This document shows, piece by piece, positions 2,043 to 54,189 of a DNA stretch of 64,000 bases. Below the pieces are notes generated by a model, which saw only the letters and a program-made list of their open reading frames with translations, was not told the DNA's origin and made no database searches. The stretch's first letter is position 1, and the number at the start of each line of letters is the position of its first letter. Made by a program: the position numbers and the translations under genes. The stretch comes from Cladocopium goreaui. Lineage: Eukaryota > Sar > Dinophyceae > Suessiales > Symbiodiniaceae. Where the stretch lies: positions 509,001 to 573,000 of the forward strand of contig CAMXCT020002358.1 in NCBI GenBank assembly GCA_947184155.2. Direction: 5' to 3'.

Positions 2043-2101
2043 TGACGGCAAAGCGTTTCTCCCTACAGGACTTCTTGAAGCCATCAACGGCACTTCTGAA
2101 C
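2043..2101 (-). CDS. ATP6V1C: V-ATPase subunit C exon 15, last one found
   Basis: Residues 264-282, [19 protein letters not shown], matching the family block FRKxVDDFxxKxREKxFxVRDF. Acceptor CTGAG|G; proposed GC donor A|GCAGCT, so the next exon should restore an Arg/Ser before a DF-like pair. No convincing continuation was found between 1 and 2,042. Confidence 0.85.
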
Positions 2102-5100
2102 CTCAGAAACAAAGTGACGTCCTTTCTTTAATGGTAGTTCGTGAATGGTGAAATTTGATCACCTTGGATGTTGTTCATGATGAATTTCGAAACATCTCAA
2201 TTTTTGTTCAAAAATCTTTTTGATGTGGCAATTACTGTGAATGTGAATGGTCCATTTTGATGTTAGCTGTTATTGGATACATCCTGGACAATTGTTTTTC
2301 ATGGTGAATTTGACAATAATTCGTGGACAACTCAGGTGTCTGTTGATCGCCTAGAGATTCCTAAGGTTTCAGTGATGCTTCTCCACGGGATATTGTCCTT
2401 ACATTACTATACATTACTCACATTCCAAGTCCTTTAAAGACCCATTGTGCGGTCAACTGGCTTTCTCCTTCTTTGTCCAAACACGGTTACCCTCTGTCTA
2501 TTTAACATAGCAATGGAACATGGCCCAATGATGATTTAGAAAATGATGAGTTAGAAAATGATGATTTAGAAAAACAGTGCTCGATGTTTTTTGCATAGCA
2601 GTAACTCAAGGGTAGAAACATGTAGAACCCCAGAAATGCCATATCTAAATAAGCAGTGTTCTTAAAATCCCTCTATCATTCCATGTTACATCTGGTTACT
2701 GGTTGGTTTTCGCAGCTGCCACTGCAGAAGTCCTCCCTGTCTCGCGCAACGCGCCAAGGAGGTGGCATGACGACGCGCCACAAAGTGTTGCCGTCCTCGC
2801 TGCAACGGCTGGGGCCTAATCTTCTGATCTTGGTAGCTTGAGGAACTCACCAATATACCCTCTGGTAAACTTACACTAGACGACGGATGGCCCGAGAGCG
2901 TAGAGGAGCAGGGTCTTCTCTTGTTAGTATGGAGACGCAATTTTAGAAACGATGTATGAAAGATGTGTTATAGGCAGTCGAGAAGAGGAGTATCAAGACA
3001 GGACAGTGAGAAGTGCAAGACAGTAGTTTGCATCGCAAACACTTTTACAAACAGACGCTTTTTACACACAGACGCTTTTAAACAAAAAGCTTTTACACAC
3101 AGAGGCTTTTACACAAACACTTTGACACAAATACTTTTACACACAGAAGCTTTTACATACAAACACTTTTACGCACAGACGCTTTTACACACAAACCCTT
3201 TGACACACAGACGCTTTTACACACAGACGCTTTTTACACACAGACGCTTTTTACACACAGACGCTGTCACACACAAACACATGTACACACAGAGGCTTTT
3301 ACAAAAACACTTTTACACAAACACTTTGACACAAACACTTTTACACACAGAAGCTTTTACATACAAACACTTTTACACACAGACGCTTTTACACACAAAC
3401 GCTTTGACACACAGACGCTTTTACACACAGACAACCTCTACACACAGACGCTTTTTACACGCAAACGCTTTCACACACAAACACATTTACACACAGAGGC
3501 TTTTACACAGAAACACTTGAACACAAACACTTTTACACACAAACACTTTTACACACAGACGCTTTTACACACAGACACTTTGACACACAGACGCTTTGAC
3601 ACACAGACTCTTTTACACACAGAGACTTTTACACACAAACACTTTTACACACAGACGCTTTTACACACAGACACTTTGACACACAGACGCTTTGACACAC
3701 AGACTCTTTTACACACAGAGACTTTTACACACAGACGCTTTTTACACACAGGCGCTTTTACACACAGACAAGAACGGCACAAGTAAAATTGCACTTTTAC
3801 CTCAGTTTTTGCCGATCGACCCTCATTTCGTGCGAAAGGGTTGCTCCAGGACAAGTCAAATCGCAGTTTTACCTCAGTTTTTGCCGATCGACCCTCATTT
3901 CGTGCGAAAGGGTTGCTCCAGGACAAGTCAAATCGCAATTTTACCTCAGTTTTTGCCGATCGACCCTCATTTCGTGCGAAAGGGTTGCTCCAGGACAAGT
4001 CAAATCGCAATTTTACCTCAGTTTTTGCCGATCGACCTTCATTTCGTGCGAAAGGGTTGCTCCGGGGCAAGTCAAATCGCAGTTTTACCTCAGTTTTTGC
4101 CGATCGACCCTCATTTCGTGCGAAAGGGTTGCTCCGGGGCAAGTCAAATCGCACTTTTACCTCAGTTTTTGCCGATCGACCCTCATTTCGTGCGAAAGGG
4201 TTGCTCCGGGGCAAGTCAAATCGCAATTTTACCTCAGTTTTTGCCGATCGACCCTCATTTCGTGCGAAAGGGTTGGCGTTTCGTGACTCGCCGCCGGCAC
4301 CACCCTCGGCCTTAAGAGAGAAAGATAAAGAAGGCGAGAGAGAGAAAAGAGAGAGAGATGTGAGAGAAGATGTGAAGATGAGCAGATGTGAAGATGAGCA
4401 GATGTGAAGATGAGAAGATGTGAGAGAAGGTGTGAAGATGAGCAGATGTGAAGATGAGCAGATGTGAGAGAAGATGTGAAGATGAGCAGATGTGAAGATG
4501 AGCAGATGTGAGAGAAGATGTGAAGATGAGCAGATGTGAGAGAAGATGTGAGAGAATATCTAAGAGAAGATGTGAGAGAAGATGTGAAGATGAGCAGATG
4601 TGAGAGAAGATGTGAGAGAGATGTGAGAGAAGATGTGAAGATGAGCAGATGTGAAGATGTGAGAGAAGGTGTGAAGATGAGCAGATGTGAAGATGAGCAG
4701 ATGTGAAGATGAGCAGATGTGAGAGAAGATGTGAAGATGAGCAGATGTGAAGATGAGAAGATGTGAAAGAAGGTGTGAAGATGAGCAGATGTGAAGATGA
4801 GCAGATGTGAAGATGAGCAGATGTGAAGATGAACAGATGTGAAGATGAGAAGATGTGAAGATGAGATGTGAAGATGAGAAGATGTTTTACAGACCCCCAC
4901 TATTGGAAGAACCCTGCGCTCAGACGCTCTCGGGAAAAAAGCTATTGAAAATGGCAATTTATAGTGGATTTTCCCATGAAAAATGGTGATTTTCCATAGC
5001 TATGTTAGTTTACCAGAGGGTAACACCAAGCTGAAAAAAGCACACAAACTGTTGCTGAATGTTAAACTGTTAATCAAACTTGATTGGTTGATTTAATTAC

Positions 5101-8100
5101 CAATCAACCACTGATTATCACACTCAGACAATATTAGACTTGATTACCAATGATTACTCTTGTTTTAAAATCAAACTGTTGTTGAATATGATACTGTTAA
5201 TTTTACAGGTTGATATCAAAACCATATCCCCATGAAAGCAATGCCCAGGTACTACCCCATGACTGGTTGCTTTTCACACCTATAGCCATGAAAGTATCCA
5301 GTGATGCAAGGCAAATGCCCATAAGTATTTAAATGTATTCCATATGATATCTTCATATTATCAATGCTTATCAACCACTTTCTACCTCAGGATAACCCAC
5401 ACTAGATATACCATCTGGTTATTGAACATAGCCATGGAAAGATCCACCATTTTTCATAGGTAAACCATCTATTTCTATGGGCCATCTATACCATGGCTAT
5501 GTTAAATAACTAGAGGGTACATCATATTAAATCCCATTCAACCACCATAAAATCCCATTAAAGTCCCAATGTATTCCATATATATATATATAAAACCATT
5601 GGGATACAAAGTACTGGTTGTGTCATTTTACATCCCCCAAAAAAACAATCGTGTCGTGGATCCTCTCCGGTCCAAACCTTGCCATTTTCATTGGCCCATT
5701 GGCCTCTGCCCTGAGGCATCCCTCAGATTTTCCCAGCGACGTGCCTTGTCATCCACTCCTTTGAACTGTCTTGCGGACATTGGCCTTGATTTGAAAGCGA
5801 TTTTCCAATGAAATACCCTCCGGTAAATTCACATAGACCCTGGCAGGTAGGGGTTGGAAGACTGGTGTCCACTAAAAATCGCTGATTTTCAGGGTCGAAC
5901 TGTTAATTTACTAGAGGGTACATGGGCTAAAAAACATATGCAGTGGACATTTCAGGACCCTGAAATAAAGCTACTGTACCATCTAAAGTAATATTTTGGG
6001 GTGTGTCACCTTGCATAGTCCTTACATACATAGTCCTTACATAGGCGGTTTGTATGGTAGGTATCTCCAATAAATTTGTACCTGAAACAACCATTGACAT
6101 ATGGGCCGGACCAAGAAATTCGATCAGCTTATCAACAAGAATGAACATATATTATATACATCAGCAACCATGATAATAATAATGTGTAATATCATGTTAT
6201 GTATATACCTTTGCTATTTTGTCATGCAGAAAATAAAACAGATTTTCTCGATGTCCCACATGGATGAGGCAATGAAAAGGTGAGCCATATTTATGGCTGG
6301 GTACTCCATACTCTCATTTGCAGTGACTGGTTGGTGGTTGACCTACTTGGTTAATGGTGATTAATGGTGGTTAATGATAATTAATGATGGTTGATGATGG
6401 TTGATGATGGTTGATGATGGTTGCTGATGGTTCTCTGGTTGGCGGTTGACCTACCCCTCTGAAAATGATGGAGTTCGTCAGTTGGGATGATGAAATTCCC
6501 AAGATGATGGGAAAACTAAAATTCATGTTCCAAACCACCAACCAGCTAGAAACTATAAAACGATATATCTATATATAGATTTATAATCAAAGGAAGTTTA
6601 GATGTCTACTATAATATAGCGATATAATATTATAATATATTACATCCAATATTCCCATCCAGAATTGTTGCAAACAAAATCTGCTTGGTGGTATACCAAA
6701 ACCCCTCTGAAAATTGATGGAGTGAAAGTCAGTTGGGATGATGACATTCCCATATATGAAATGGAACATAAAATTCATGTTCCAAACCACCAACCAGAAA
6801 TGCACAATGCTATAGGGTAGATGTTCATTTCCTGGGGAGCCATTTCATCCCCGCCAACCATTTTAGGGATTCCGTTATCCGCAGAAGTTGTTTCACTTGC
6901 CAAGTTGCACGATGTTTTCCTGCATGGTGTGGTACGTCTTGAGAAAATCGTCCTAGCAAGTTTGCAGCGGAAAGCCAGTCGTGCTATTCAGCTGGACATT
7001 CCCCACACTGATGCTGATGATGTTGATGATGCTGAGGATGATGCTGAGGACAAGGATGATGATGATGCTGATGATGTTGATGTTGATGATGATGATGAGG
7101 ATGAGGATGAGGACGACGACGACAATTGTTTTAGCACAATGAGCATTGTGAGTTAATTAATTTGCTATCCAGTGGTGAACGGAGGAAGCGGTTTGGAGCT
7201 AGGATGCAGCTACGCAGCAAGAGTTTCCCGTTTCCACACAATGGTGAAGAAATGTTGATCATTCATAGATATCTATAGATGATGATCATGAAAATATGTG
7301 AATTATTGTGAATTACCTATAGGTTCTAGATATTTATAGATGATGATCATGAAAATTCATGAACATATGTGAATTACCTCATTTGGCTTCCAAAAATATG
7401 GCTATCCACATCCAAGTCATGGGATTGCTGCTGCCACTTCCACGCCTCTCCACCACGTGGCACAATCACGGGAATCGTCGTCAGATGTTCGGTCCTTAGC
7501 ATTTTTTTTTTACCACTCATCTAAGGATCTTTACCAACCATTTGAAGGGATATTGTGGGATATATATATAATAAATAATAATAAATAATCATAATAATTA
7601 TAATTATGAAAAAAGGGGGGGTACCATAAAAATGTGTCATATAAAGTGACTATTTGAAGGGTACCCCCACAATTAATAAACCATAATTTATTAATCCGGA
7701 GATGATATTACAACATATTCATTGAGTTCCATCCGAACGGTTGACACGTTTGACACCAAAGATTCACGGTTCACTTCCTTCGTATTTGATGGGAAACACC
7801 AAGTTTATGCCCTCCGTTGATCAACACTTTGATCCTTTTTACCGTTGGGAAATTGTGACAACTCATAATATTTTATCACATCTATATATATATATATGGG
7901 AAAATATGATAGTGCACATCTATTATTCCATATATATATATATATTCTATATATATATACACATAACATTGGCACAGGTGATTTTCCTTATCATATTTTC
8001 CCATCTATAAACCGTGCAGGGCACAAGATCATGAAACTCCAGCACCAACTCAGCCGCTGAGTCCAGCTATTTGCAGCGCGATGTGCTAATCACACCACGC

Positions 8101-11100
8101 AACTTTGTTTCCACATACCCTCTGGCAAACATGCTTTTTATAGTTGAAAATTGCTTTTTGTAGTTGATTTACCCATTTAAAATGGTGATTTACCCATTTA
8201 AAATGGCGATTTCCATAGTTATGTTAGTTTACCAGAAGGTATGTCTGGAGAAAACCCAATTTAGTTGGACGATTTGCCTGATTTTCTGTAGCTATATGTG
8301 GGTTTCCATGGAAAATGGGGGTAACCGTTACACCCAATAGCTGGATCGTTTATTTCATGGAAAATCCCAATCTAACATGGATGATAACTAGGGATCCTTT
8401 TTGACGAAAGCTCCATATGAAAATTGCGAACAAGCTAGAGATTCAAAGCTCAATCGAATCAATCTGGTGAAATGATGGATTTGTGCCTTCAAGGATCAGA
8501 TAGGCCTCTGAACATGGCTACTTGCGCAGTTCCAGTGAACTAAGTGGCTATATAGCCATAGTCATAGGAGTTATATTCCAACTAATAGGTGTTCTGTAGA
8601 ACCATAGTTGGGATATGACTAGTTGGGATATGACTAAACACCTATTAGTTGGGATATGACTCCTATGACTAGTTATAGTTATAAGTTCTACCAATTTTTT
8701 AAACCTCAGTCCTACACCCCCACATAGATACAAAGTGGGGCCCCCTAGATAGCTAAGTTGGTTTATAACTCCAATAACTTTGGTCTATGGTACTTATAAC
8801 GAACTAGTTATTGGGGCTTTTGTTAACCAACTAACATCACTAGGGGGCTTCACATTGTAGAGACATAAACTTACCATTTTGTTTCCCCTTAATGTCCGCC
8901 TTGGGTTGCCCGCAATGGGCTGGGATCCTACTTTTGGGATGACCAAGTGGCAGTGCTTGGGCTGGGATTTTTCTTGGGATATTGGGAGGGTCTAGGACCA
9001 TAACACAAAATATACTATAATGTTAGTAAAACATTAATAAACTTTAAGTACCATCCCCAATTTCACCATTTTTAAAATGGTACGTTTACCATTCCCAGTC
9101 ATGGGTGGTAAACATGGCATTGTTTTACCCACATTAATCTGGAAAAATATACAAAAATCATGTTCCAGTCACCACCAACCAGACATCTTTACCCTCTGAT
9201 AAATTAACATAGACCCTGGCAGTCATCGGGGTTGGAAGACTAGTTTCCATTAAAAATTGGTGATTTTCAGGGTCAACAAGTTAATTTACCAGAGGGTATA
9301 TTCCATTGATCCATTGATATTCCATTCATATTCCAATATCTATATAATTTTGATCCATTAATATTCCAATGGATCAATTAATCTATACAGGGTGGGGCCC
9401 CCAAGATAGCTAAGTTGGTTTATAAGTGGTTTTACAATGGTTTATGGTAGATATAACTGTAGTTAATGGGGGTTATAATGGTTTACAAACCAACTTATAA
9501 CTGGGGGGCCCCATCCTGTATGATATTAATGGTAATCCCCTTTTTTTCAGATCTTCAGACTGATCTCACCCGAAGAGGTCGTGGCCGAGGCACGAGATGA
9601 AGTCATCGTCTGCGCCCCCATCAGCTTTGACTCTGTCGGGTGTCAGGACGTCGATCAGATCACGTCCTGGCCACGGAGCCTCCGGTTTTTACCACGCAAA
9701 CATGGTAAAAGTACGACGGTTGTGGTGTAAAATTCATCATTTTTAAGGGGGTTGAGGTCAAACTCAGCTGGTTGTGGAGATTGTTCTTCTCATATTTCAA
9801 CTTTTCCGTTCGTCTTTTTTCATTGGGGATCCGGCAACTTGTTCATTTCTCTTCTGTTTTGCTTATAACAAGCCCCAAACAGATGCCGACCAGTCGAAAA
9901 CTTGGAATCATATGGTAAACATCATCGAACCACACTTTTCCTGGAAACACTCCTATTGGCATCTCTTTTAGCCATTAGTATTATCCATTCTTCACCAGTA
10001 TATCAGCCATATAAAATCATACACAACAATAGGATCAGCTATACAACATGACCATTTTTTATAGTTAAGCTAAATCCCGACATTTTACTTATTAATCGCA
10101 CCAAAATAATATCAAACCATCTAAAAAACATTTAAACAAACATTAGAACACCACATTAAATCAATCTAAACCGGTCTCAACCATATAAAATGACATTTTT
10201 TCATGCCCAAAATGCTCCATGGTGCTGGAATATTTATCTACAAAACTGGGCCATTTTTGGGGTAAATGTAGGTGTGCATATTCCAGTACCATGGTTCGCA
10301 TCTGGGATACTGGAACTATAGTTCAACTATGTCTGCTTGGTGGTTTGGAACATGAATTTTATTTTTCCCATCATATTGGGAATTTCATCATCCCAACTGA
10401 CTTTCACTCCATCATTTTTCAGAGGGGGAGGTATACCATTAACCATATATATATACATATCATGTAAACATATAAATAATATAGATATCCCACAACAAAC
10501 ATATCCCACATTAATCATCAAAACCATCTACATTTGATCAACCATAGATAATCATTAACACATCCCAAAACCATAGTTATTATTTAATAAACCATTCGAT
10601 ATCAACCATGAACCATAGATAATCATCATTTGAACATCCGACATTTCACATCTCAAAACGCCCACCGCATGTTGTCTCCCGACCAGCCAATCTGCCCCAG
10701 GTCCAGTCCTGCCAGGTTGGCCGCATCCTTCTTGGCCAAACTACCTGTGACAACTCCGTTGAATCAATGGACACAACCAGCAATAGCTGGATGGTGCCAA
10801 TCAGGGACATCCCATTAAATGAGGAAAATTCCCATGAACATGGAAAAATTAACTATTAGTGAATTTATACTTTACCATCTGGTTATTTAACATAGCCATG
10901 GAAAATCACCATTTTTAATAGGTAAACCTCCATAAATGGGCCATTTTCCATGGCTATGTTAAATAACCAGAGGGTACTAGATGTGGATGGAAGAAATAAT
11001 TGGATAAACACCCTAAAACCATCTATATCATAGGGATATAACCTTATATATAGTGGGTTTCCATCAATGGAGGTACCTCAATAGCTGGATGGTTTATCAG

Positions 11101-14100
11101 GGAAATTCCCATTAACATGGATGATAACTAGGGGTACCACCATTTATGGAATATGATGTGGATGGAAGAAATCTATGGAAAAAACAACTATAGAAAATCT
11201 AGGGATGACTGGGATAATTAACTATTAGTGAATTTATAATTTACTAGCAATCTGATTTGGATGGTTGCGAAATCCTGAACCACCTTGGATGGTTGACCTT
11301 GGATGGTTGAAACCCTATAAATAATGGGATGTTTACCATCTATCAACTGGTGATTCGGATTTCGCTGGCCCATCCACAGTATTTTTGGTGGATTTGTTGT
11401 TCTTTTGGGTCAAAAGCCTGCGCCAGGTTTGTCAATCCATCATGCTTACTGGTGCGTTTGACGTAGGGTTGCTGGATGGGTTGCTGGGGGTTGCTGGGAT
11501 GATGACATTCCTAGTGATGACTGGGATCATTCCCGAAAATTCCCTAAGTTTAGCACGCATCAGATTTAGCATGGGTCATATTCCAAATCCCATGTTGAAA
11601 ACTCGTGAAATTCCATGTTTTCATCATGGATTTGCTGATTCGGGACCACCAAAAGTATTGGATTCCCCATTGGATTTCCGAGAAAATCAATTCCATCATC
11701 TTCAGCAACTCCAAGTCCGAAAAAACCGGTCAACCAATCCGCCATTTTACCATGTTTTTTCCCCCGACAGTCAGCAGCTTGTCACAAATCTTGGATGACC
11801 CTCGGTGATTTTCCAACAAAAAAACACTTGGTGAATCATCACACTTAGTAAGTTGGGAAAAAACAGTTCATAAGCCAGTTTCAATGGCTATGTTAGTCAT
11901 TACCAGAGGGTAACCTTGTTGCTGGTTCATCCCAGTCAGTGGGTTATACCATGTTATAACCCTAGTTATAAGTGGATTAAGCCTATTTTGACCATTTATA
12001 AGTACCAGGTGCTGCTTTTCCAGTTATAAATGGATTATATCCCTTGAAAACTACATCGATATATCAACAAAAGCCAGCCTGTGACATTGGACAACTAAAC
12101 GCACCAACGAATCGCGAACTCACGAACGCAATGGGCACCACCTTGTAGCCCATATGCGAACCATGGTGCTGGAATATGCACACCAACATTTACCCGAGCA
12201 AAATCGCCCAGTTTTGTAGGTAAATATACCCCGCACCATGGAGAATCTGAGTATGGGACAAAACACCATTTTTAACGTATTTACTTGGAAGGTCTGGGTA
12301 GACACATGGTGATTAGAGAGTTCCAAATGGGAAAGGATACCTGAAAATGTTTGGAAAACTTCAACAAATTCATGGACAGGTGGATTCCCATATTATATCG
12401 TTGGATACTGGTGGATCAAAAATCATGATCCAACCATTACTGATATATGATATATTTTATATATGATCCTCTAATACTTGGTGGATCATCCGATCATCCG
12501 ATCATCAGTTATAAGTTGGTTTGTAAACCATTATAACCCCCATTAACTATAGTTATATCAAGTTATATCTACCATAAACCATTGAATTCAACCACTTATG
12601 TTCACCAACTTAGCTACGCTATCGACTGGGGGCCCCAGCCTGGTTTAGGGTTTAGGGTTATTTCACCGAAGAACCGATTCATGGGATCCACACAGCTGAA
12701 CAAAATTGGGACTCCCAACTCATCTGCGTTTTGAAGTCGTTGAACTGCGCGGTCTTATTCCTGGCTTCCTCGTCAATGTGGTTCACCGTGGACCTTGGCC
12801 AAATCGCGGCTGGAAATTCTGGGGGGATTAGCCTCTGGTAATGACTAACATAGCATGACTAACAGTTTGCTATTGAAAATGGCCATAGAAATAGTGAGTT
12901 TTCTCATTAAAAATGGTGATTTTCCATAGTTCTGTTAGTTTACCAGGCCGGGTACAATGATTACAATGGATTGATCTGAGTTTAATGTGGCTGGATGTGG
13001 CTGGTTAAGACTGATAGTGTAGCTTTGAGTTCAACACTATTTATACTAATTGTACACATATACAGAATTATCTATCTATCTATCTATCTATCTACCTATC
13101 TATCGATCTATCGATCTATCGATCTATCGATCTATCGATCTATCAATCTATCTATCTATCTATCGATCTATCGATCTATCTATCTATCTATCTATCGATC
13201 TATCGATCTATCGATCTATCGATCTATCGATCTATCGATCTATCTATCTACCTATCTATCGATCTATAGATCTATCGATCTATCGATCTATCTATCGATC
13301 TATCGATCTATCTATCTATCTATCTATCGATCTATCGACCTATCTATCTATCTATCTACCTATCTATCGATCTATCGATCTATCGATCTATCGATCTATC
13401 TATCTATCTATCGATCTATCGATCTATCTATCTATCTATCTATCTATTACGTATACACACGTGGAAGGTTCCTAGAGAGGGATTTGTTCGTAAATAATGG
13501 ATACCCTCTGGTAATGACTAACAGTTTGCTATTGAAAATTGCCATAGAAATAGTTGATTTACCCATATAAAAACGGTGATTTTCCATAGTTTTTTGTATG
13601 TTTACCAGAGGGTACACGGGGTCTCACCCCTCCAGTTATCCAACTGTTGGTGAAACCATAGATTTCACCAAACACGGGCCTCACCGGACCTAGCTGGTAG
13701 CTTTAAGCTACCAATTTTCTTGAAAAGGATGATGTTTTTTATCCAATATGGCTTTAATATGGTTTTATATGGTTTAATATGGTTTTGAATGGTTTAATAG
13801 AGAATATATCTTGCGAAGATAAAGGATCTTTTGGAGATACCACCAAATATTTATCCCATTGTTATCCAATGATATCTGGTTGGTGGTATACCTACCCCTC
13901 TCAAAAATGATGGAGTTCGTCAGTTGGGATGATGAAGTTCCCAATAGATGGAAACATAAAAAATGTTCCAAACCACCAACCAGTTACATATATATATATC
14001 TATACATGTGTACATAGAGAAATGTACATTCATAGAGTATGATAATTACAAATAATGGATACACTTTCCCATATTGCCAATGTTTCTCCTTCACACATTT

Positions 14101-23081: not shown

Positions 23082-23123
<42 letters not shown>

Positions 23124-26100
23124 GTATATATATATGTATATATATATATATGTATATATATATATAGATTCATTAATTATACATACTATATACACTATAT
23201 AAATATATATCTATGTATATATTTGGTTGGTGGTTTCAACCTACCCCTCTGAAACATGATGGAGTGAAAGTCAGTTGGGACTATGAAATTCCCAACTGAA
23301 TGGACAGTCATAAAATTCCATGGTTCCAAACCACCAATCAAATCCAATTTCAGAGTCATGTTCCCATTTATTTCACAATCATAAATTCTTCCAAGTTCCA
23401 TCGTTGATGACTCAAGTAACGGTTTCCAAAATTGGGATCAGCGGAAGTCATACCCAAAACTATGTTCACTGAATAATATACAAATTCTTTGATGAACCCC
23501 CCCTCTTTTTGTCGGCAAATATAGCAATGAACATATACACATCCCATCAATAGGGGGTGTTGTTCCGTTTATCCAATCCAGTTACATTCAAAGCAACCTT
23601 CAACCCTGGGGTGTGCCAAAGTAGTTGTTCTATCCATGTCGCCATCACATGAAGTACGTTTGTGAAGCAAAAAAACATTGCAGCGAATCGGACCGTCAAA
23701 GTAAACCGTCATAAGGGACTGCAACAATTTCCATTGTGAAACCATCAATTGGAAAAAACACCATGAAAATGCATTTTTTTATCACTTTCCAGCATTGCTC
23801 TCCATTGCGATTCAATCCTTCATTTTCATGGTTACCATCTGGTCATTTAACATAGCCATGGAAAATCACCATTTTCAATAGGTAAACCATCTATAAATGG
23901 GCCATTTTCCATGGCTATGTTGAATAACCAGAGGAATTCTATTTTTGTTGCCAGTAAAATCCCCAAATATATCTCAATTTATATCCCCAAAAATGGTTGC
24001 TGAAATACTGCTTGGTGGTTGACCAAAATCCCTTCTGAAAAATGATGGAGTGAAAGTCAGTTGGGATGATGACATTCCCAACTGAATGGAAAGTCATAAA
24101 ATTCCATGGTTCCAGTCACCACCAACCCAAAAAATATATATAAAAACACATGTAATCCTCACCTTTGAAGGATAGATCCCATATAAAATCCCCATCACTA
24201 TCTTATTGTCTTTTTGATAGATATGAATATCATATTTATAGATAAAAAGTGTCTGTATAATATTATTTGTTTTATTATTTCATATAATCATTATACAGTA
24301 TTGTTTGTTCGTACATCCTATACATATGATTATACTGTTACTTATATATAGGGCCCCAAGCCACCATGCTTGTTTCAATAATAAGTCATGGTTATCCATT
24401 ACTGACTTGGATGATTTGGGGGTACCCTCATTTTCTGATATTGTTACTAATGATACTTCCTAATATGCTTAGAATATTATGGTTGTCATTAACCATGAGG
24501 GCACTATTAACCATTAGACAATCATAATATTAATAATAATTAATAATTAGTAAACACTAGTAACTAACCATCATAATATTGTTGTCACTAGTAATCATTT
24601 TATATTGTTGTCACTAACCATGAGTAATCACAAGCCTCCATTAGTATCATTAGTAATCATCATATTCTAACCATTAGTAATCACAAGCTACTTGATTGTC
24701 TCATGGTTATGACATTGTCTAATGACCATCCCGCAAGGATGAAGTTTCCAAACAAGGTAAGTCAATTCCTCTAGACATGGAGTCTGGATTAATCGTACCC
24801 TCCAGTAAATTAACATAGACCCTGCATGACCCTGCCAAATAGGGGTTGAAAGATTAGTTTCCTCTAAAAATTGGTGATTTTCAGGGCCTATGTTAATTTA
24901 CCAGAGGGTAAATACCTTGTAAATAATGGTTAGAGGAATGTTATAACTACTCTAAATAATGGTTAGGTTATTCCTTTTTATTTAGTTATATCTGGATAAT
25001 TTATACTAATGATTATAAATGGTTAATACAGATCATACAAATACATTTATATCTGATGTTTATTTTTTTGCAAATTCACGAATTCTGAAACTTGTGGCCA
25101 ATTTGGGGATAATTCCCCTTACGAAATAATTATCTTTCGAGGGTTCGGTCGCAGTGAGGTCGTTAGAACTTACCAAATTGCATATATATATATACAATGA
25201 GAGGCCCCCAAGATATCTAAGTTGGTTTATAACTCCAATAACTATGGTTTATGGTACTTATAACTATAGTTACTGCCTCACATTGTATATATATTTATAT
25301 ACAATATATGTCAATATATTATATGATAGCATAATGTATAGTATAAATACACATAATTAAATATATATTTATTATTAGTATTATTATCACTAATCATTAA
25401 TGGTACTGTTATCATATATTCTGTTATAGTATATATATAGTATCAATACACATGATTAACTATTAGTATCATTATTAGTATGATTATTAGTTATATATAT
25501 ATATTGTTGCTATCACATGATTAACTATTAATATCAACAATATTAGTATTGTCACTATTCTTATCACTAATCTATATGTATAAGTACAAATGATTATATG
25601 TTATGATTGAATTATCACTAATTTAACGTAGCTCTGGAACATGTACAATTTATAGATGATTTACCTAAGAAAAAGTGACTTTCCATAGCAAACTGTTAGT
25701 TTACCAGAGAGTAACTGTTAATATAGTGTCATCTGGTTGGTGGTTTTAACCATCTTGAAAAATATCAGTTCGTCAATGGGAAGGATTATCCCATATATGA
25801 AATGGAAAATACAAAATCATGTTTGAAATCACCAACCAGCTATAGAAAATTCACCCACATCCTACCTCCCTACGTAGGGAGTTGCCTAAAAGATGACAAT
25901 ATATATATAAAACACATGATTATATTTACATACATATATATATATATACATACATACATATACTATGATATTATTAAATTATCACTAATGATTATGATCA
26001 TTCTTCACCATGTCAAATCTATCCCCAAAGGTCCCCAAAGGTCGGTCACTGTCGTTCCAGTCGATGAAGGATGCTGTCCACCTGGGAGTCAGCCTTCGCC

Positions 26101-29100
26101 AAGTCGTCCTGGTCGAAGTTTCGAAGTTTCGTAGGGACTTCATGGGGATTCTTCGGCCAAAAATGGCTGGATTTTACCCATAAAAAAACGTTGAAAAACG
26201 TTGAAAAACCATAGAAAACCATGAAACAAACATGGAACAAACTATGGAAAAACCATGAAACATGGTGGATTTTGCCGTGAAAACCCCTAGAGATTGAGGG
26301 ATTTGACGATTTTTGACGCATGAAATTCGTGGTGGATGAAAAACCAGATGAGACCATGAGAGCATGATTTCATGGGATGTTTGTTGGGAATACGAAATAT
26401 TCAGCAACCACTACTTAGATGGGCCATGGAGTTAGTTAACTAGTTAGTAAATAGCTTATTTCATTGGGATATTTTGGGGGTAAACAAACCCCAGTTACTA
26501 ACTAGTTAACTAACTCCATGGCCCATCTAAGTAGGGTTTTCATCTAAATTATTACCAAATCATCCATATTGTATGGTTGGAGAATGGTAATAGATGGATA
26601 TTATCCAACATTATCCAACCATTACAGTCATTATCCTCTAATATCCTTTGTTGGGAATACCCTCTGGTCATTTAACCATATGTGAGCTGGTGCAATGGTT
26701 TCATTACAAACCACCCAAAATACAACTAAGTATACCATGACATGGAGCACAGAAACAGATTCTAGATGTACCCTCTGGTAAACTAACAGTTTGCTATTGT
26801 ATAGATGGCCATAGACAGTTCGTTGATTTACCCATCAATAGCATGGTGGATCTTTCCATAGTTATGAAACAGTTTACCAGAGGGTACTCAATATTACCAA
26901 ATCATCTAAATTATATATTCAGCAACTAGGGATATCTACAGATACTATCTTTTGCTTAGAATAGGAATCTTAGTGGCCGGTTGGTGGTGTTAACCATCTT
27001 GAAAATTATTAGTCAATGGGAAGGAATATCCCATATATTCCATATATGAAATGGAAAATAAAAGTCATGTTTGAAACCACCAACCAGCTATAGAAAATTC
27101 ACCCACATCCTACCTCCCTACGTAGGGAGTTGCCTAAAAGATGACTATATATATATAAAACACATGATTATATTTACATACATATATATATATATACATA
27201 CATACATATACTATGATATTATTAAATTATCACTAATGATTATGATCATTCTTCACCATGTCAAATCTATCCCCAAAGGTCCCCCTGGGGGGCACTGTCG
27301 TTCCAGGTGGATATTAAAAACACATCATATGGCTTCCATCGAAAAAGATGGAGCGGAGATCAACCAAAAGAATCATCGAAGCAACAGAAATGTGGGATTC
27401 CCTAGAGATCCACAGAGCTATGGTTGCTACTCCTGCTGTTGGCATTTCTGTTGTTTTTGTTGCTGTTGAGGTTGCTGTTTTTGTATGCGATTTTGTTGCT
27501 GTTCGAGGTGATGAGCTGGTTTTTCAGTGTCTTTACATTTTGCTCATCATTAGTTTTTTTTGGTGAAAGACGCTGAAGCCATGCGACAAGGGTGAAAAGA
27601 ACCTTTGAAAAACATGCTGGTTTATCTTGAACACCATGCGACAAGGGTGAAAAAAACCTTTGATATGCTGGTTTAAAAAAAAAAAACACAAATTTTTATG
27701 ATCTTTTCTCTGGTTTTACATGGTGAAGTTTTCATCTTTTTTCATATGGATGTGGGTCAAAATGGAAGACCATTAATGGGACCACAGATATTAGTCTAGT
27801 TTAGTATTAACCATCCAATTGTTGGGGTACTTAGATGGGCCATGGAGTTAGTTAACTAGTTATTAACTGGGGTTTGTTTACCCCCAAAATATCCCAATTA
27901 TATGCCATTTACTAACTAGTTTTCCCTAACTCCATGGCCCATCTAAGTATGGCCTTTCCTTAAGGCATAAGCCACTCCGACTACCCATCGCCCCAGGATG
28001 CCCCAGGCTCCGTGAGTCGAATGAGGTTGTCGAAGGATCCAAACAACAACGACCGATCCCCGTCAGGGACTTCGAACTTGTAAGGCTCCTGGAGGACTGG
28101 TCGGACTGACCACAAAAAAAAACAACGGTTATATATAATTATGTGTATTTATACTATACATTATGCTATCATATAATATGTTGACATCTATTGGATATAT
28201 ATATATATATAAATATATATATATACAATGTGAGGCCCCCCGGCCAGTGATGTGAACGTTGGTTAACAAGTTGGCCCCAGTAACTAGTTCGTTATATGTA
28301 CCATAAACCATAGTGACATTGGAGTTATTTGCACCTACTTAGATATCAAACGGAAGCCTCACATTGTACGGTCTCACAACCAAAAAAAAAGTTGAGGTAT
28401 CAAAAAAACGTGGTAAAACATGGTGAATCTTAGATACCCACCAAGAAAATCTCTCATTTTTAGCTGGTGAATGTACATTTTATCATAGCAAAGGATTACC
28501 CTCTGGTAAACTAACATAGCTATGGAAAACCACCATTTTTAATGGGTAAATCAACTATAAATGGCCATTTTCAATAGCTATTTTGACATAACCAGAGTGT
28601 AAACATCCCTGACATCTTCGACCAAAGGTTGACCCAGACATTAAAAAACATCCTGAAGGCTTGCGCTTGAGCCCCGCAGGGTGGGAAACTTCTTCAACCT
28701 GGACGACGGGCGCAACGGCGCAACGGCGCGGAGCAAGCGAGATGTTGCCATTGAAACGGATCCATGTCAACACCCAAAAATCCACAATTTTTCATGGGAA
28801 GATCCACTATTTCAATGGTCATTTTCAATGGATTGGTTTAAGGGAAATTTTACAGGAAAACCCCATGATCTTCATGGGAAAATGCGGTGGAGATTTAACT
28901 GATGGTTAAAAAAAATCATCCTGATCGGATGCATCCCAACAGTTGGCTTATCCAAGCTATAAATGGTTTGTAAACTTAGAATAACCAAGTTATACGTTAC
29001 CCTCTGGTAAATTAACAGTTCGACCCTGGCAGTCATCGGGGTTGGAAGACTAGTGAAACCATGAAAAATTGGTTATTTTCAGGGTCGAACTGTTTATTCA

Positions 29101-31179
29101 CCAGAGGGTAACTGATTAGTAAACAGAGGGTTTTAGACCCTCCAAATTTCAAATGCATAAAACATCGGTATTTACAGTGTTTTATCATCATGAAAATTCA
29201 TGAAAATTCAGTCCCCCACGGGGTGCCGCCCTCTTAGAAAATGGGGTTGTAAGCCAGTTATGAATGGAATAGTCCAAGTGAATGGGGACTTACTAACTAG
29301 GCTTAGCAAAACCCGTTTTCCATGGTGAATCCTTGATCGTGTTGATCGTCCACAAAACACATGTCATCTTTTGCTGGTTGGCAGGTTCTTTTCCATACAA
29401 AGTGGGGCCCCCTAGATAGCTAAGTTGGTTTATAACTCCAATAACTTTGGTTTATGGTACTTATAAGTATAGTTATTGGGGCTTATAAACCAACTAACAT
29501 CACTGGGGGGCCCCACATTGTAGGATTAAACTGATTAAACTATATACCTATTCAAGGTTGAGGATGTTTATAGTTTATAGAAATGTTAACTACTGGGGGA
29601 TATAACGATAGTTCATGGGGTTTAGACACCAACTTACAACTGGGGTGTTGTTGTTGTTGTTGTTGTTGTTTTGTTGAATTGTTGAATTGTTGAATTGTTG
29701 AATTGTTGAATTGTTGAATTGTTGAGTAGTTGAATAGTTGAATAGTTGAATAGTTGAATAGTTGAATAGTTGATGGATATGTTTGTAAAAATATCATGCT
29801 GTTAGAAAAATATCTAAGTAAAATGATATGCAACTACAAGTGGATGGTTGTCACCCTACATTTTTTTGGGGGATTACACCGAAAGCGCAACTATCTGACT
29901 GGACAACAGCGACCAGTCCAGCCCGATTCAACAATATGCTGCAATCCAATCACAAAGAATGGTGCCTGTGTTACATTTAAAAGTTGCATATGTCAAACAA
30001 GTTTTTTTTGAAGTTCCAAAAAACATCTGGGTGTTTCTAAAGTACGGTTACCCCCAAATCATCCATTTCAATAGTTTTTCCCCATTATGAAGCATCCATT
30101 TTGGGGTACCCCCATTTTAGGAAACCTCCATCTACCGTGCTGAAATCTCTTCAAACTCGACACACATTCTCCATCTCAAATCGAGCTCCAAGAGATCTAC
30201 CTAGAAGGGACCAGTGAACTGACTGGATACCCTCTGGTGATTTAACATAGCTATTGAAAATGACCATTTATAGTGGATTTTCCCATAAAAAATGGTGATT
30301 GTCCATAGCTATGTTAAATTACCAGAGGGTATATCACCATCGTTGTATATGGGGTGATATCCAACAAAACTGGGGCTTTAAATCTCATAGTCATATCCCA
30401 ACAAAGAACATTGCTATTTGCCAAATAGCCTTAAAACAAAAGTCGTTAGCTGGTTAGTAGATATATGCCAGACGATTAAAGGATTAGTTTCTAGCCATCC
30501 AGTTGGTTGACCATTAAAAAAAATCGCCTGCAACTGCCAGAGCCAGAACTTCTGAGGGCCGCACTGTGACAGCAAGGCATCTTTCTTTTCTCCGGACTCC
30601 CTGAGGCAAAAAGGTACTCGGACATGTTAAAGAAAAAGGCCTAAACACCTAAAACAAGCGGTTTAAATATCATAATCTTTCCCGAGTTCCCATGTATATA
30701 TATATATATATATCCAATTTCCAGACACACCCATACAAGTTCTGAGATGTTCAGTGTCACACTGGATCGAGATTTCTCAGTTTAAGGGATATGGGTATAT
30801 ATATATTATATATACACAATTAACTTGTATAAAACCATAGTTATAGATGTTATATCCCAACAAAAAATGCCGGTTTATAACCAGGTTTATAATCAGAAAA
30901 GTAACTTCAACTGCACTCCAAGTGGTTCATGACATGTCCAGCGACGACTTTTCGTCACCTAACATTGCTACTTAGATGGGCCATGGAGTTAGTGAACTAG
31001 TTAGTAAATGGCTTATAATTGGGATATAGAAGGTTATAACCCCAGTTACTAACTAGTTTTCCCTAACTCCATGGCCCATCTAAGTAGAGACTTGCGCTTC
31101 TGGAGCTGTCCTTAGGCTCCCACTGTCCTTTGGCACAGCCAACTGCCACTATCCAGAAGTCTTGTCCCACAATGCTCAT
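2043..31179 (-). CDS. ATP6V1C: V-type H+-ATPase subunit C, 15 exons, 3' end missing
   Basis: Subunit C of the V1 sector of the vacuolar proton pump. In the family it links a peripheral E/G stalk to the membrane a-subunit and releases during reversible disassembly. I assembled it by eye from minus-strand exons: 31179-31124, 30600-30528, 28088-28011, 26108-26050, 19747-19696, 17097-17072, 14911-14837, 12793-12720, 10744-10709, 9666-9570, 7494-7446, 6952-6909, 5784-5745, 2795-2767, 2101-2043. They sum to 847 nt (282 codons) and every phase closes. Recognisable family blocks occur in order: DFWIVAV at the N-terminus, [41 protein letters not shown], a [18 protein letters not shown] stretch, [42 protein letters not shown]. 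The family is usually about 380-390 residues, so roughly the last hundred are absent here. All 14 acceptors are AG|G; donors are 4 GT, 6 GC and 4 GA. Family assignment is strong; exact ends of exons 1 and 15 are less certain. Confidence 0.9.
2767..2795 (-). CDS. ATP6V1C: V-ATPase subunit C exon 14 (29 nt)
   Basis: DGNTLWRVV plus two bases of Met. Continues the VDDK sequence of exon 13 and leads to [10 protein letters not shown]. Acceptor GCGAG|GAC, GC donor AT|GCCACC. Confidence 0.88.
3030..3770. repeat. Minisatellite, CTTTTACACACAGACG-type units
   Basis: About 15-16-bp units with variable spacing in intron 13. ORFs across it are repeat artefacts. Confidence 0.9.
3775..4274. repeat. 72-bp tandem array, seven units
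   Basis: GCCGATCGACCCTCATTTCG recurs every 72 bp from 3,811 to 4,243. Because 72 is divisible by 3, several frames on both strands stay open (24-residue repeats), so openness is not evidence of coding. Confidence 0.92.
4318..4885. repeat. Polypurine minisatellite (GATGTGAAGATGAGCA type)
   Basis: About 570 bp almost only A/G plus T in ATG/TGTG on the plus strand; strong strand asymmetry. Third consecutive array in intron 13. Confidence 0.9.
5409..5519. mobile_element. MITE-A copy
   Basis: Degenerate ends (CCATCTGG/CTAGAGGG), hairpin intact. Confidence 0.75.
5745..5784 (-). CDS. ATP6V1C: V-ATPase subunit C exon 13
   Basis: Residues 241-253, [13 protein letters not shown], the family V-V-P-x-S-S/A block. 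Acceptor TCAAG|G supplies the third base of the preceding Val; GC donor AAG|GCACGT. Confidence 0.9.
5814..5920. mobile_element. MITE-A copy, GACCCTGGCAG subfamily
   Basis: Same ends as MITE-A but a different core, AGACCCTGGCAG...TTCAGGGTC. Other copies of this core: 9,190; 24,796; 28,998; 34,530; 56,630. Confidence 0.8.
6435..6545. mobile_element. MITE-C copy
   Basis: Left arm CTGGTTGGCGG. Confidence 0.82.
6681..6797. mobile_element. MITE-C copy
   Basis: Left arm CTGCTTGGTGG. Ends about 110 bp from exon 12. Confidence 0.82.
6909..6952 (-). CDS. ATP6V1C: V-ATPase subunit C exon 12
   Basis: Residues 226-239, [14 protein letters not shown], equivalent to the family W-x-x-x-Y-E-x-L-x-E-x-V segment. 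Acceptor GCTAG|GAC directly follows an in-frame stop; GC donor GT|GCAACT. A plus-strand acidic ORF (6,821-7,156) overlaps it antisense. Confidence 0.9.
7010..7125. repeat. GAT/GAC triplet microsatellite
   Basis: Immediately upstream (transcriptionally) of exon 12; antisense reads as an acidic run. Confidence 0.85.
7446..7494 (-). CDS. ATP6V1C: V-ATPase subunit C exon 11
   Basis: Residues 210-225, [16 protein letters not shown], matching the family strand SEYLTTLLVVVPK. Acceptor CTAAG|G, GC donor GAG|GCGTGG, which keeps the VP-to-VP spacing equal to that of other subunit C proteins. Confidence 0.92.
8116..8241. mobile_element. MITE-A copy
   Basis: Core contains a short internal duplication (ATTTACCCATTTAAAATGG twice). 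Confidence 0.8.
8729..8859. mobile_element. MITE-B copy
   Basis: MITE-B: about 130-bp hairpin, ends TACAAAGTGGGGCCCCC.../...GGGGGCCCCACTTTGTA, core AGCTAAGTTGGTTTATAA. Terminal TA on both sides. Confidence 0.85.
9190..9298. mobile_element. MITE-A copy, GACCCTGGCAG subfamily
   Basis: Ends TACCCTCTGATAA/TTACCAGAGGGTA with the GACCCTGGCAG core; lies 0.3 kb from exon 10 of the V-ATPase gene. Confidence 0.8.
9386..9520. mobile_element. MITE-B copy
   Basis: Variant ends TACAGGGTGGGGCC/GGCCCCATCCTGTA; adjacent to exon 10 (its right end is 50 bp from the exon). Confidence 0.85.
9570..9666 (-). CDS. ATP6V1C: V-ATPase subunit C exon 10
   Basis: Residues 178-208. Starts [12 protein letters not shown] (family: R-x-L-x-D-(I/V)-V) and then has an acidic insert [16 protein letters not shown] before the LTT block. 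Donor GG|GTGAGATC is a near-consensus GT site. The antisense strand is also open (9,551-9,704) but has no family match. Confidence 0.92.
10214..10306. mobile_element. MITE-E copy
   Basis: MITE-E: about 95-bp hairpin, CCCAGATGCGAACCATGG type ends, arms GGTGCTGGAATATTTACC. Confidence 0.78.
10328..10440. mobile_element. MITE-C copy, reverse core
   Basis: CTGCTTGGTGGTTTGGAACA start, core inverted relative to the previous copies, right end decayed. Confidence 0.7.
10709..10744 (-). CDS. ATP6V1C: V-ATPase subunit C exon 9
   Basis: Thirty-six nt: a split Ser, [11 protein letters not shown], and the first base of a Gly codon. It corresponds to the family segment ending K(K/R)-N-A-G. Acceptor CACAG|GT. 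GA donor GCAG|GACTGG and acceptor CCAG|GACGTG share the bases CAGGAC across the intron. Confidence 0.85.
10873..10976. mobile_element. MITE-A copy
   Basis: Hairpin with GGTTATTTAACATAGCC arms. Confidence 0.85.
12149..12258. mobile_element. MITE-E copy
   Basis: CCCATATGCGAACCATGG left end. Confidence 0.78.
12720..12793 (-). CDS. ATP6V1C: V-ATPase subunit C exon 8
   Basis: Residues 141-164, [20 protein letters not shown] followed by KTQM. This matches the helix that in other species reads T-Q-I-D-x-D-x-(K/R)-x-(R/K). Acceptor CCAAG|G, donor A|GTTGGG. Confidence 0.92.
12829..12954. mobile_element. MITE-A copy
   Basis: Right end is the GGCCGGGTA variant. It stops just upstream of exon 8 on the transcribed strand. 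Confidence 0.8.
13062..13448. repeat. TCTA/TCGA tetranucleotide microsatellite
   Basis: About 390 bp of TATC repeats interspersed with CGAT variants; [10 protein letters not shown] ORFs are artefacts. Confidence 0.95.
13502..13614. mobile_element. MITE-A copy
   Basis: Near-complete hairpin next to the TCTA microsatellite. Confidence 0.85.
13876..13983. mobile_element. MITE-C copy
   Basis: Complete. Confidence 0.85.
14435..14580. mobile_element. MITE-B copy
   Basis: TACAGGATGG/CCATCCTGTA ends. Confidence 0.8.
14687..14793. mobile_element. MITE-A copy
   Basis: Near-complete hairpin about 40 bp from exon 7. Confidence 0.85.
14837..14911 (-). CDS. ATP6V1C: V-ATPase subunit C exon 7 (WDEAKYP box)
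   Basis: Residues 116-139. Contains [19 protein letters not shown], the most diagnostic motif of subunit C. Acceptor GCGCAG|G, GC donor TG|GCGCTC; phase 2 both sides. Confidence 0.95.
15907..16010. mobile_element. MITE-A copy
   Basis: Near-perfect hairpin. Confidence 0.85.
16390..16501. mobile_element. MITE-A copy, left end decayed
   Basis: Left end reads CCCTGTGGTC; right end ACCAGAGGGTA is intact. Confidence 0.7.
16793..16900. mobile_element. MITE-C copy, CAATGGGAAGGAT subfamily
   Basis: Core with TCAATGGAAAGGATTACATC and TGTTTGAAACCACC; same core at 18,559, 25,733, 26,977, 55,514 and 63,582. Confidence 0.82.
17072..17097 (-). CDS. ATP6V1C: V-ATPase subunit C exon 6 (26-nt microexon)
   Basis: Only 26 nt: DLPVLDYL plus a split Gly. 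It leads directly into WSWDEAKYP of exon 7, exactly as the family reads there (an LxxYL segment before the WDEAKYP box). Acceptor TGGAG|GAT, GA donor GG|GACCCC. Confidence 0.85.
17148..17261. mobile_element. MITE-A copy
   Basis: Left end CCGGCCTGGT variant; about 50 bp upstream of exon 6. Confidence 0.8.
17279..17374. mobile_element. MITE-E copy
   Basis: CCCATATGCTC/GAGCATATGGG ends. Confidence 0.8.
18099..18234. mobile_element. MITE-B copy
   Basis: Left end degenerate, right end GGGTCCCACTTTGTA. Confidence 0.75.
18559..18663. mobile_element. MITE-C copy, CAATGGGAAGGAT subfamily
   Basis: Complete. Confidence 0.83.
19465..19572. mobile_element. MITE-A copy
   Basis: Near-perfect hairpin in intron 5. 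Confidence 0.85.
19696..19747 (-). CDS. ATP6V1C: V-ATPase subunit C exon 5
   Basis: Residues 90-106, [17 protein letters not shown]. Acceptor TTCCAG|G joins exon 4 in phase (CA+G gives Q). GA donor AAG|GAGCGA. Intron 4 upstream of it is 6.3 kb and contains a Mutator-like insertion at 21.9 kb. Confidence 0.88.
20001..20091. mobile_element. MITE-A copy, shortened
   Basis: Ends GCCCTCTGGTA/GCCAGAGGGTA with a reduced core. Confidence 0.65.
20340..20455. repeat. AT microsatellite
   Basis: Interrupted (AT)n. Confidence 0.9.
21665..21820. mobile_element. MITE-G copy
   Basis: MITE-G: about 150-160-bp hairpin, ends TCAATGGGAGATC/CCAGGATCC, arms GGAGGTACCTACCATAT, core AAGGCCTATGTAAGGG. Confidence 0.84.
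21881..22630. mobile_element. Mutator-like non-autonomous element
   Basis: 750-bp insertion in intron 4. Terminal inverted repeats with CCGACCCATAG and CGGCCGT near both ends, flanked by the 9-bp duplication CAACTACAA (21,872-21,880 and 22,631-22,639). Interior: a small palindrome CGTTTTCGCTACAGCGAAACG near the left end and a roughly 80-bp tandem repeat with CATGACGTGTGTGTGCAAG and GCCCCACCCCACC. No transposase ORF. Confidence 0.85.
23080..23170. repeat. TA/GTATAT microsatellite
   Basis: (TA)n with periodic G. Confidence 0.9.
23223..23341. mobile_element. MITE-C copy
   Basis: Right arm ACCACCAATCA. Confidence 0.8.
23833..23936. mobile_element. MITE-A copy
   Basis: ACCATCTGGTCATTTAACATAGCC arm; right terminus eroded. 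Confidence 0.8.
24009..24127. mobile_element. MITE-C copy
   Basis: Left arm CTGCTTGGTGG. Confidence 0.78.
24796..24910. mobile_element. MITE-A copy, GACCCTG subfamily
   Basis: GACCCTGCATGACCCTGCC core with MITE-A ends. Confidence 0.8.
25193..25288. mobile_element. MITE-B copy, shortened
   Basis: Ends TACAATGAGAGGCCCC/GCCTCACATTGTA. Confidence 0.75.
25733..25839. mobile_element. MITE-C copy
   Basis: Part of the segment duplicated at 26,977. Confidence 0.83.
25840..26062. repeat. Intron-exon segment duplicated at 27,088
   Basis: Near-identical to 27,088-27,308. Includes the exon 4 donor end (CACTGTCGTTCCAG on plus). Confidence 0.85.
26050..26108 (-). CDS. ATP6V1C: V-ATPase subunit C exon 4
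   Basis: Residues 70-88 plus a split Q89. [20 protein letters not shown] matches the family block SDELAKLDAFVE. Acceptor ACCAG|GAC, donor CA|GTGACC. The last 11 exon bases and this donor recur at about 27.3 kb inside the preceding intron as part of a duplication. Confidence 0.9.
26411..26534. mobile_element. MITE-D copy
   Basis: MITE-D: about 120-bp hairpin, ends CTACTTAGATGGGCCATGG.../...CCATGGCCCATCTAAGTAG, centre AACTAGTTAGTAA. Confidence 0.87.
26769..26886. mobile_element. MITE-A copy
   Basis: Complete, both TACCCTCTGG/CCAGAGGGTA ends. Confidence 0.85.
26977..27087. mobile_element. MITE-C copy
   Basis: Duplicate of the 25,733 copy with its right flank. Confidence 0.83.
27088..27308. 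repeat. Duplicate of 25,840-26,062
   Basis: Copy inside intron 3; carries a detached copy of the exon 4 terminus and GT donor. Confidence 0.85.
27828..27949. mobile_element. MITE-D copy
   Basis: 60 bp from exon 3. Confidence 0.85.
28011..28088 (-). CDS. ATP6V1C: V-ATPase subunit C exon 3
   Basis: Residues 44-69, with [18 protein letters not shown], corresponding to the family block usually written as F-x-(I/V)-P-(E/D)-x-x-x-G-T-L-D-x-L. Acceptor TCCAG|GAG. The GA donor ACG|GAGCCT makes the junction LT-DDLAKAD the same length as in other subunit C proteins. Confidence 0.9.
28224..28368. mobile_element. MITE-B copy
   Basis: TACAATGTGAGGCCCCC end type, 0.14 kb from exon 3. Confidence 0.85.
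28497..28601. mobile_element. MITE-A copy
   Basis: Complete hairpin, right end one base off (ACCAGAGTGTA). Confidence 0.85.
28998..29110. mobile_element. MITE-A copy, GACCCTGGCAG subfamily
   Basis: Both ends intact, GACCCTGGCAGTCATCGG core. Confidence 0.85.
29396..29522. mobile_element. MITE-B copy
   Basis: TACAAAGTGGGGCC/GGCCCCACATTGTA. Confidence 0.85.
29645..29775. repeat. GTT and GTTGAATTGTTGAATA repeats
   Basis: (GTT)n followed by 8-10-bp GTTGAAT units. Confidence 0.9.
30228..30331. mobile_element. MITE-A copy
   Basis: Near-perfect hairpin in intron 2, 0.2 kb from exon 2. Confidence 0.88.
30528..30600 (-). CDS. ATP6V1C: V-ATPase subunit C exon 2
   Basis: Residues 20-43, including the stretch [20 protein letters not shown]. 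It is the poorly conserved N-terminal segment, placed by phase (2 in, 0 out) between exons 1 and 3. Acceptor CCTCAG|G, donor CAG|GCGATT (GC type). A second frame is open, but only this one fits the flanking phases. Confidence 0.75.
30968..31087. mobile_element. MITE-D copy
   Basis: In intron 1, 37 bp from the exon 1 donor. Confidence 0.87.
31124..31179 (-). CDS. ATP6V1C: V-ATPase subunit C exon 1 (start codon)
   Basis: Residues 1-18. It begins [13 protein letters not shown], matching the short N-terminal FW-(I/L)-(V/I)-x-A strand of the family. A CAG|G at 31,185-31,184 lies just upstream of the ATG and could be the spliced-leader trans-splice acceptor. The donor is probably CA|GTGGGA. An alternative GA|GCCTAAG donor six bases later keeps the same phase. 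The frame is also open upstream into 32.1 kb, so a further 5' cis exon cannot be excluded. Confidence 0.68.
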
Positions 31180-31426
31180 TTCACCTGCCGGAGCACAGGT
31201 TTTCTCCGGAAGCTGTTGGGTATAGATATATGATATTTACCCAGAACGCTATTTACCCATGAAAATGGTGTTTTAATGGGATACATGATGGTGATTCAAT
31301 GGCATTAAAAATGGGATTTCATGGGATATATGATGATATACCATCTGGTTATTTGTTACATAGCTATGGAAAGATCCACCATTTTTAATAGGTAAACCAT
31401 CTATTTCTATGGGTATATATGATGAT

Positions 31427-33145: not shown

Positions 33146-33276
33146 TACAATGTGAGGCCCCCCAGTTCTAAGTTGGTTTATAAGCCCCAGTAACTAGTTA
33201 GTTATAAGTACCATAAACCATAGTTATTGGAGTTATTTGCACCAACTTAGATATCAAACGGGGGCCTCACATTGTA
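33146..33276. mobile_element. MITE-B copy
   Basis: TACAATGTGAGGCCCCC ends. Confidence 0.85.
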
Positions 33277-44543: not shown

Positions 44544-44582
44544 ATCTTGTCACTGCTCAAGTGTCTTACATCGAACTATACA

Positions 44583-48017: not shown

Positions 48018-48045
48018 TATGATTAATATGATATATATATATATA

Positions 48046-54172: not shown

Positions 54173-54189
54173 CTGGGAGTTGGCTTAGT

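Follow-up and report, generated by a model that had tools for sequence, protein, structure and literature searches.

Can a gene be recognized when its coding sequence appears to be scattered in pieces of a few dozen bases over tens of kilobases, or does joining such pieces only assemble a protein by chance? The question arises at a 64,000-nt stretch of DNA (the window; C2358:509001-573000 in a 1.17-Gb assembly), in which a sequence-only reading had proposed a gene for V-ATPase subunit C. Members of this family form the clamp that connects the V1 peripheral stalks to V0 subunit a, and they govern the reversible assembly of the pump. Judged from its sequence, we predict with a probability of about 0.9 that the locus is a single nuclear dinoflagellate gene for V-ATPase subunit C (PF03223), apparently functional and divided into many short exons.

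A permissive tblastn search with plant and mammalian subunit C returned a long and noisy list that contained weak minus-strand segments in family order (at 26108, 14907, 12795, 10784, 7502 and 2118). The conserved W-D-x-A-K-Y-P box is present as WSWDEAKYP at 14907, and a GGADDDF box lies at 9619, both on the minus strand. For a quantitative comparison, we used a purpose-written spliced-alignment program with a three-member profile (Arabidopsis, mammalian and yeast subunit C), set to introns of at least 30 bases, favoured GT, GC and GA donors and an AG acceptor. The minus strand of 1-31300 scored 248.1, compared with 138.4-192.0 in 67 controls. Among these, shuffling in blocks gave 143.0-179.8, first-order shuffling 138.4-175.3 and shuffling of the profile columns 140.7-185.1 (20 controls each). 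Six other strands, reversals or halves gave 154.0-192.0, and the reversed profile 156.5. When the locus was extended by 40 kb of contig to the left of the window, the score rose to 380.8, against 226.9-248.0 in six controls. The subunit C signal exceeds chance. The proposed gene identity, its family order and phase and its WSWDEAKYP anchor are borne out.

A PF03223 match alone is weak proof of this, because exon picking on six non-gene sequences also beat the Pfam cut-off of 23.1 bits, giving best chains of 32.7, 38.1, 88.9, 44.5, 49.3 and 69.0 bits. All six controls thus show that the identical procedure can build a passable family member from non-gene sequence, as a chance assembly extended exon by exon from one conserved box in AT-rich repeats would require. 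Such an origin is nevertheless exceedingly unlikely here. The automatic chain on the real strand reached 284.9 bits, far above every control, and the C-terminal exons were found in order beyond the window, where they scored 79.9 bits by themselves. Our hand-refined model scored 242.6 bits over profile positions 31-371 of 371; the automatic chain scores higher because it holds a few pieces that we rejected, such as 29712-29638. The exons inside the window, when joined, matched PF03223 as the sequence-only reading had anticipated, with 96.8 bits in a first version (30.9 bits with these exons in reversed order) and 138.1 bits in a fuller one, values to be read against the chance chains.

The gene lies on the minus strand, where it begins at an ATG at 31179 and reads leftwards. 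It does not stop at 2043, where the sequence-only reading had placed its end, 4 nt too far; the last exon in the window ends at 2047 and the gene continues 11.3 kb beyond the left window edge to a TGA, for a total span of 42,529 bp (42.5 kb; C2358:497651-540179). Seven of the modelled exons lie left of the window, at C2358:497651-508743. The modelled coding sequence consists of 19 exons and 1041 nt, which read as a single open frame (346 codons and the TGA); because exon 2 is missing, exon 1 is linked artificially to exon 3. Exon sizes range from 18 to 98 nt with a mean of 55, and introns between adjacent listed exons from 0.5 to 8.9 kb, leaving 2.5% of the locus as coding sequence. The coding sequence has a G+C content of 53.5% and a GC3 of 66%, compared with 37.9% G+C for the locus and 39% for the window. 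The microexon architecture proposed earlier holds up, but the count of 15 exons with 847 nt in about 3% of the gene gives way, inside the window, to 12 exons with 690 nt between 31179 and 2047, or 2.4% of that span. Neither is the remainder all repeats, as had been stated: self-BLAST repeats occupy 42.1% of the gene span and the same 42.1% of the window.

The stability of the exons (Table 1) was judged over six runs with differing intron penalties. Exons 3, 4, 6, 7, 10 and 11 recurred in every run, some with varying ends, and exons 5, 12 and 13 in five. Exons 8 and 9 were chosen in half of the runs, and a piece at 8899-8828 took their place in the others. Seven splice sites were placed manually or with a finder that rewarded a G, namely four acceptors (exons 3, 9, 12 and 15) and three ends (exons 8, 11 and 15). 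Exon 1 resembles Arabidopsis MTSRYWVVSLPVKD by eye, lies outside the PF03223 local alignment and has three candidate donors, after 31128 (GA), 31124 (GT) and 31096 (GC). A longer form of exon 7, to 12702, is possible and scored 2.1 bits lower (233.6 versus 235.7). The acceptor of exon 9 is uncertain among 9609, 9624 and 9632, with the 9624 form scoring highest in Pfam. Exon 13 is joined at GCC/gtcagc (slashes mark splice boundaries), at 2047, because VRDFE is supplied by the next exon, beyond the window. In isolation, exons 9 and 15 score no higher than random stretches; phase and order are what support them. Candidates for exon 2 (about 20 residues), for the eight family residues NAINRKQS between exons 7 and 8 (before SLAKKD) and for an extra exon before the last one were all no better than random stretches; the last of these gaps closes in phase without an added exon. 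A FWLISAP segment at 27369, identical to mammalian subunit C in seven of seven residues, is out of order, has no nearby AG acceptor and has an E value of 7.2, and we regard it as a chance match.

Table 1. Modelled exons, a candidate trans-splice acceptor and dispersed elements. Positions follow window numbering, negative values lying left of base 1; runs are all six unless marked EL (the two of the six made on the extended locus).
Feature	Position	Strand	Runs	Remarks
Candidate spliced-leader acceptor AG/G	31184..31186	minus		predicted; five bases ahead of ATG
Exon 1	31126..31179	minus	1/6, as 12-nt fragment	ATG at 31179; placed by eye
Exon 3	28011..28088	minus	6/6, start 28082-28085	AG/G start picked by hand
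Exon 4	26050..26108	minus	6/6, one ending at 26054	GT donor
Exon 5	17072..17155	minus	5/6	GA donor; 8.9-kb intron before
Exon 6	14843..14911	minus	6/6	GC donor
Exon 7	12720..12793	minus	6/6, three ending at 12713	GT donor
Exon 8	10709..10744	minus	3/6	end by hand
Exon 9	9594..9624	minus	3/6, start 9609	(A)DGGADDDFI(S); GT donor
Exon 10	7446..7494	minus	6/6	
Exon 11	6901..6952	minus	start 6/6; automatic ends 6909-6911	donor gcaagt; end by hand on phase
Exon 12	2767..2815	minus	5/6, starts 2808 or 2820	GC donor; modelled start by hand on phase
Exon 13	2047..2101	minus	start 5/6; end 2047 in EL 2/2	last in window
VRDFEYSKD exon	-257 to -284	minus	EL 2/2	
Exon 15, YVKLEQQRKNVEESVK	-1116 to -1167	minus		by eye and phase
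Exon 16, AMLCQAAWSDVFV	-3093 to -3132	minus	EL 1/2	AG/T acceptor
Exon 17, AWMHIK	-4226 to -4243	minus	EL 1/2	18 nt; probable
AMRVFVESVLRFG exon	-5897 to -5937	minus	EL 2/2	
PPSFASFIMSP... exon	-6643 to -6716	minus	EL 2/2	
Last exon, ...DDEFFPYVS	from -11252	minus	EL 2/2	runs on to ...PYVSLSFT, TGA at -11349
~136-bp element	8724-8859, 18102-18237, 28224-28328, 29395-29522, 33146-33276, 48041-48174, 51073-51202, 56475-56601, 57109-57246, 61753-61887			
Related family	14433-14689, 42272-42420, 53064-53325			ends like TACAGGATGGGCCCC
~155-bp element	21660-21825, 31508-31654, 37826-37986, 38317-38406, 44393-44545, 49766-49923, 54185-54343			

The sequence-only reading had singled out an acidic stretch in its exon 10, which corresponds to our exon 9, as a novel insert. 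Most of it is an ordinary family segment (VKPEDIVES), as indicated by the alignment and the Pfam scores: the family consensus at this place is NL-VK-PEDIVES-EHL, and ADDDFIS of the window aligns to PEDIVES. Without the five residues ADGGA, the model falls from 242.6 to 238.6 bits in Pfam. The short form of exon 9 ends at the donor CTC/gtgcct and joins TEHLTT in phase, with no insert, and CLGHDLFG is added only with the next in-phase donor, CGG/gtgaga, after 9570. The latter is a good GT donor that also keeps the phase, and the combined coding and splice score is higher for the long form (26.5 versus 13.0). Adding CLGHDLFG costs 5.5 bits with all else equal, however (242.6 to 237.1), and two less clean comparison pairs, differing by 2.9 and 1.7 bits, also go against it. 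A lineage-specific insert in exon 9 is thus doubtful, and CLGHDLFG is not needed; we retain the short form.

The conserved WMHIK-A-x-R-V-F-V-E-S-V-L-R block is contributed by AWMHIK, encoded by a probable 18-nt exon, and by the AMRVFVESVLRFG exon that follows. The alternative is a single 82-nt exon (-4162 to -4243, VSGRLADWIIREFTVFSTSNEAWMHIK) in place of both AMLCQAAWSDVFV and AWMHIK. It was picked by the stricter of the two extended-locus runs, has a good acceptor (ttttttgcag/G) and is in phase with exon 15, and exon 16 of the two-exon form carries an AG/T acceptor. The two-exon form likewise fits in phase, and with all else equal it scores 242.6 bits in Pfam compared with 238.7 for the 82-nt form. 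In the alignment, the 82-nt form disrupts the F-x-x-W spacing common to plant, mammalian and yeast members, which the two-exon form preserves. The single long exon is therefore the less likely choice, and the 18-nt exon is probably used, by odds of roughly three to one.

The splice sites have a dinoflagellate character. Donors were GT in seven, GC in six and GA in four of 17 cases, a mixture that is consistent with such a host and not independent evidence for it, as the search favoured these three. AG/G was found at 16 of 18 acceptors (the exceptions being exons 9 and 16), compared with 23% expected (p = 5.6e-9), and at 13 of the 14 acceptors that the program had set without a G bonus. The 21-nt core of the dinoflagellate spliced leader, in a form that agrees with PMC5029490, had 81 + 91 = 172 exact matches in the assembly, spread over many contigs, whereas a reversed-pattern control gave 0 + 0; within the window, the spliced leader occurred at chance level only. 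The G+C content of the locus (38%) and of the window (39%) is low beside the 43-60% of published dinoflagellate genomes, which is the reason to consider another host. Prorocentrum cordatum, for example, has 59.7% (PMC10666404). Set against the 172 exact leaders with none in the control, and the GC and GA donors and AG/G acceptors of the gene itself, a host other than a dinoflagellate is highly improbable, and the earlier guess at a dinoflagellate holds. For comparison, a genome scan with PF01496 (subunit a) gave three matches, two above cut-off on C1136 (99 and 174 nt) and one under cut-off on C5869; the two on C1136 show that the assembly contains a gene for subunit a of the V-ATPase. Inspected by eye, the interval between these two matches accommodates an 88-nt intron that has a GC donor. 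On this one comparison, the subunit C gene is probably not alone in mixing donors, and long introns are not universal in the assembly.

Could the locus be a decayed subunit C pseudogene whose exons have stayed open by luck? Two family stretches, exon 2 and the eight residues NAINRKQS, are indeed absent from the model. Decay is nonetheless very unlikely in view of a 346-codon frame that is free of stops over 19 exons, ends in the right place with a stop after PYVSLSFT and has a GC3 of 66%. As exon choice excluded stops, this frame counts only in part as independent evidence. A protein search across the entire assembly yielded 15 matches; this locus accounts for 13, and the other two were weak (26% and 36% identity; E values of 0.99 and 7.7). 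Among the 18 candidates that were scored from the 1.17-Gb assembly, there was no second or intronless subunit C copy and no better one. A genome scan with PF03223 returned five candidates and no match, probably because no single exon is long enough to score by itself; 14 control genomes likewise gave none, so that this null scan does not show absence. An apparently intact and functional gene remains the preferred interpretation.

The window holds several repeat families in and around the gene. Of 12 exons tested with earlier exon ends, 11 were free of self-BLAST repeats, and in exon 4 they overlapped 11 of the 59 bases. A duplication of 92.2% identity over 335 aligned positions (25735-26060 and 26979-27306) has copied the boundary of exon 4 with intron 4 (the final 11 exon bases, the donor and the beginning of the intron) into intron 3, where it forms a possible decoy exon end. 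The ~136-bp element occurs in ten copies in both orientations, 81-92% like the seed, with inverted ends like TACAAWGTGRGGCCCCC...GGGGGCCYCACWTTGTA; by eye it resembles a MITE of the mariner type with TA target sites. Another dispersed element, ~155 bp long, has inverted ends ATCAATGG...CCATTGAT and appears in seven rows, one of them partial. There is also a tandem array at 45617-46797 (138-bp unit, 8.6 copies, 96%) and, in the intron after exon 11, a tandem block of 16-, 72- and 8/16-bp repeats at 3042-4885. At 53983-54172 and 55654-55913 lie long G+C-rich, coding-like stretches that are free of stops on both strands. Two chains that include these stretches, built from part of the coding-like segments and drawn from the right half of the window, matched no Pfam family over cut-off (best 10.8 bits). 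No tRNA and no Rfam family was found in the window, and a viral-contig match (29.3 bits, 28 residues) was attributed to chance.

The modelled protein keeps the conserved blocks of subunit C (Vma5, DET3 or ATP6V1C1) in their usual order, from YKFEVP through to PYVS at the C terminus. Its best structural relatives are 7uw9 (171.8 bits) and 36qu chain O (161.8 bits). It differs in about 20 N-terminal residues that were not found, in the eight-residue gap where plants have NAINRKQS, in being shorter before WMHIK and in a shorter C-terminal linker. Among dinoflagellates, G(C/A)-AG introns are described for Symbiodinium (PMC5029490). For six species, Table 2 of PMC10666404 (Amoebophrya left out) gives 23.6-74.9% GT, 25.0-58% GC and 0.1-23.8% GA donors, 79.7-97.1% AGG acceptors, 8.0-17.2 exons per gene, average exons of 98.7-239.9 bp and average genes of 8.8-26.2 kb. 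The subunit C gene is like those tabulated genes in its mixed donors, AG/G acceptors, many exons and great length, but is longer (42.5 kb), has smaller exons and is lower in G+C. Its mean exon of 55 nt is about half of the 99-120 nt of four of the six species in that table. It is a known type of dinoflagellate gene, extreme in its short exons and long span. A search of the open-access PMC literature found nothing on dinoflagellate microexons or on this subunit C gene. Microexons are known in animals and plants, and the gene resembles them in that it probably has an in-frame exon of 18 nt flanked by introns of kilobase size. Since this exon would encode a conserved part of a protein with a housekeeping role, it should be constitutive and not a switch.

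Exon order, phase, splice dinucleotides, a family match through the C terminus and spliced leaders in the assembly are directly supported. We infer from them that a pre-mRNA of at least 42.5 kb would be transcribed and cut at each junction into about 19-21 very short exons, the 18-nt exon for AWMHIK probably among them, by a spliceosome that tolerates GT, GC or GA at the 5' site and is strict about AG/G at the 3' site. A leader may be trans-spliced just ahead of the ATG. The product would then act as the clamp that links the V1 peripheral stalks to V0 subunit a and controls reversible pump assembly. The combination of short exons and long introns most likely reflects an old richness in introns followed by repeat-driven intron growth, rather than a special function. 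Exon G+C is 43-65% in surroundings of 38%. We raise only tentatively, as an unlikely reading, that exon recognition must rest on something besides the 5' site, be it the AG/G end, exon G+C or repeats that pair across introns.

Motif-anchored, exon-by-exon assembly needs matched controls, as chance chains pass the Pfam cut-off. In such a genome, an essential gene can escape standard annotation though apparently whole. If exons of 18-31 nt between introns of 0.5-9 kb are indeed recognized without a strong donor consensus, the locus would be a test case for the lower size limit of exon definition. The probable 18-nt constitutive exon may offer a handle on how dinoflagellate spliceosomes locate tiny exons.
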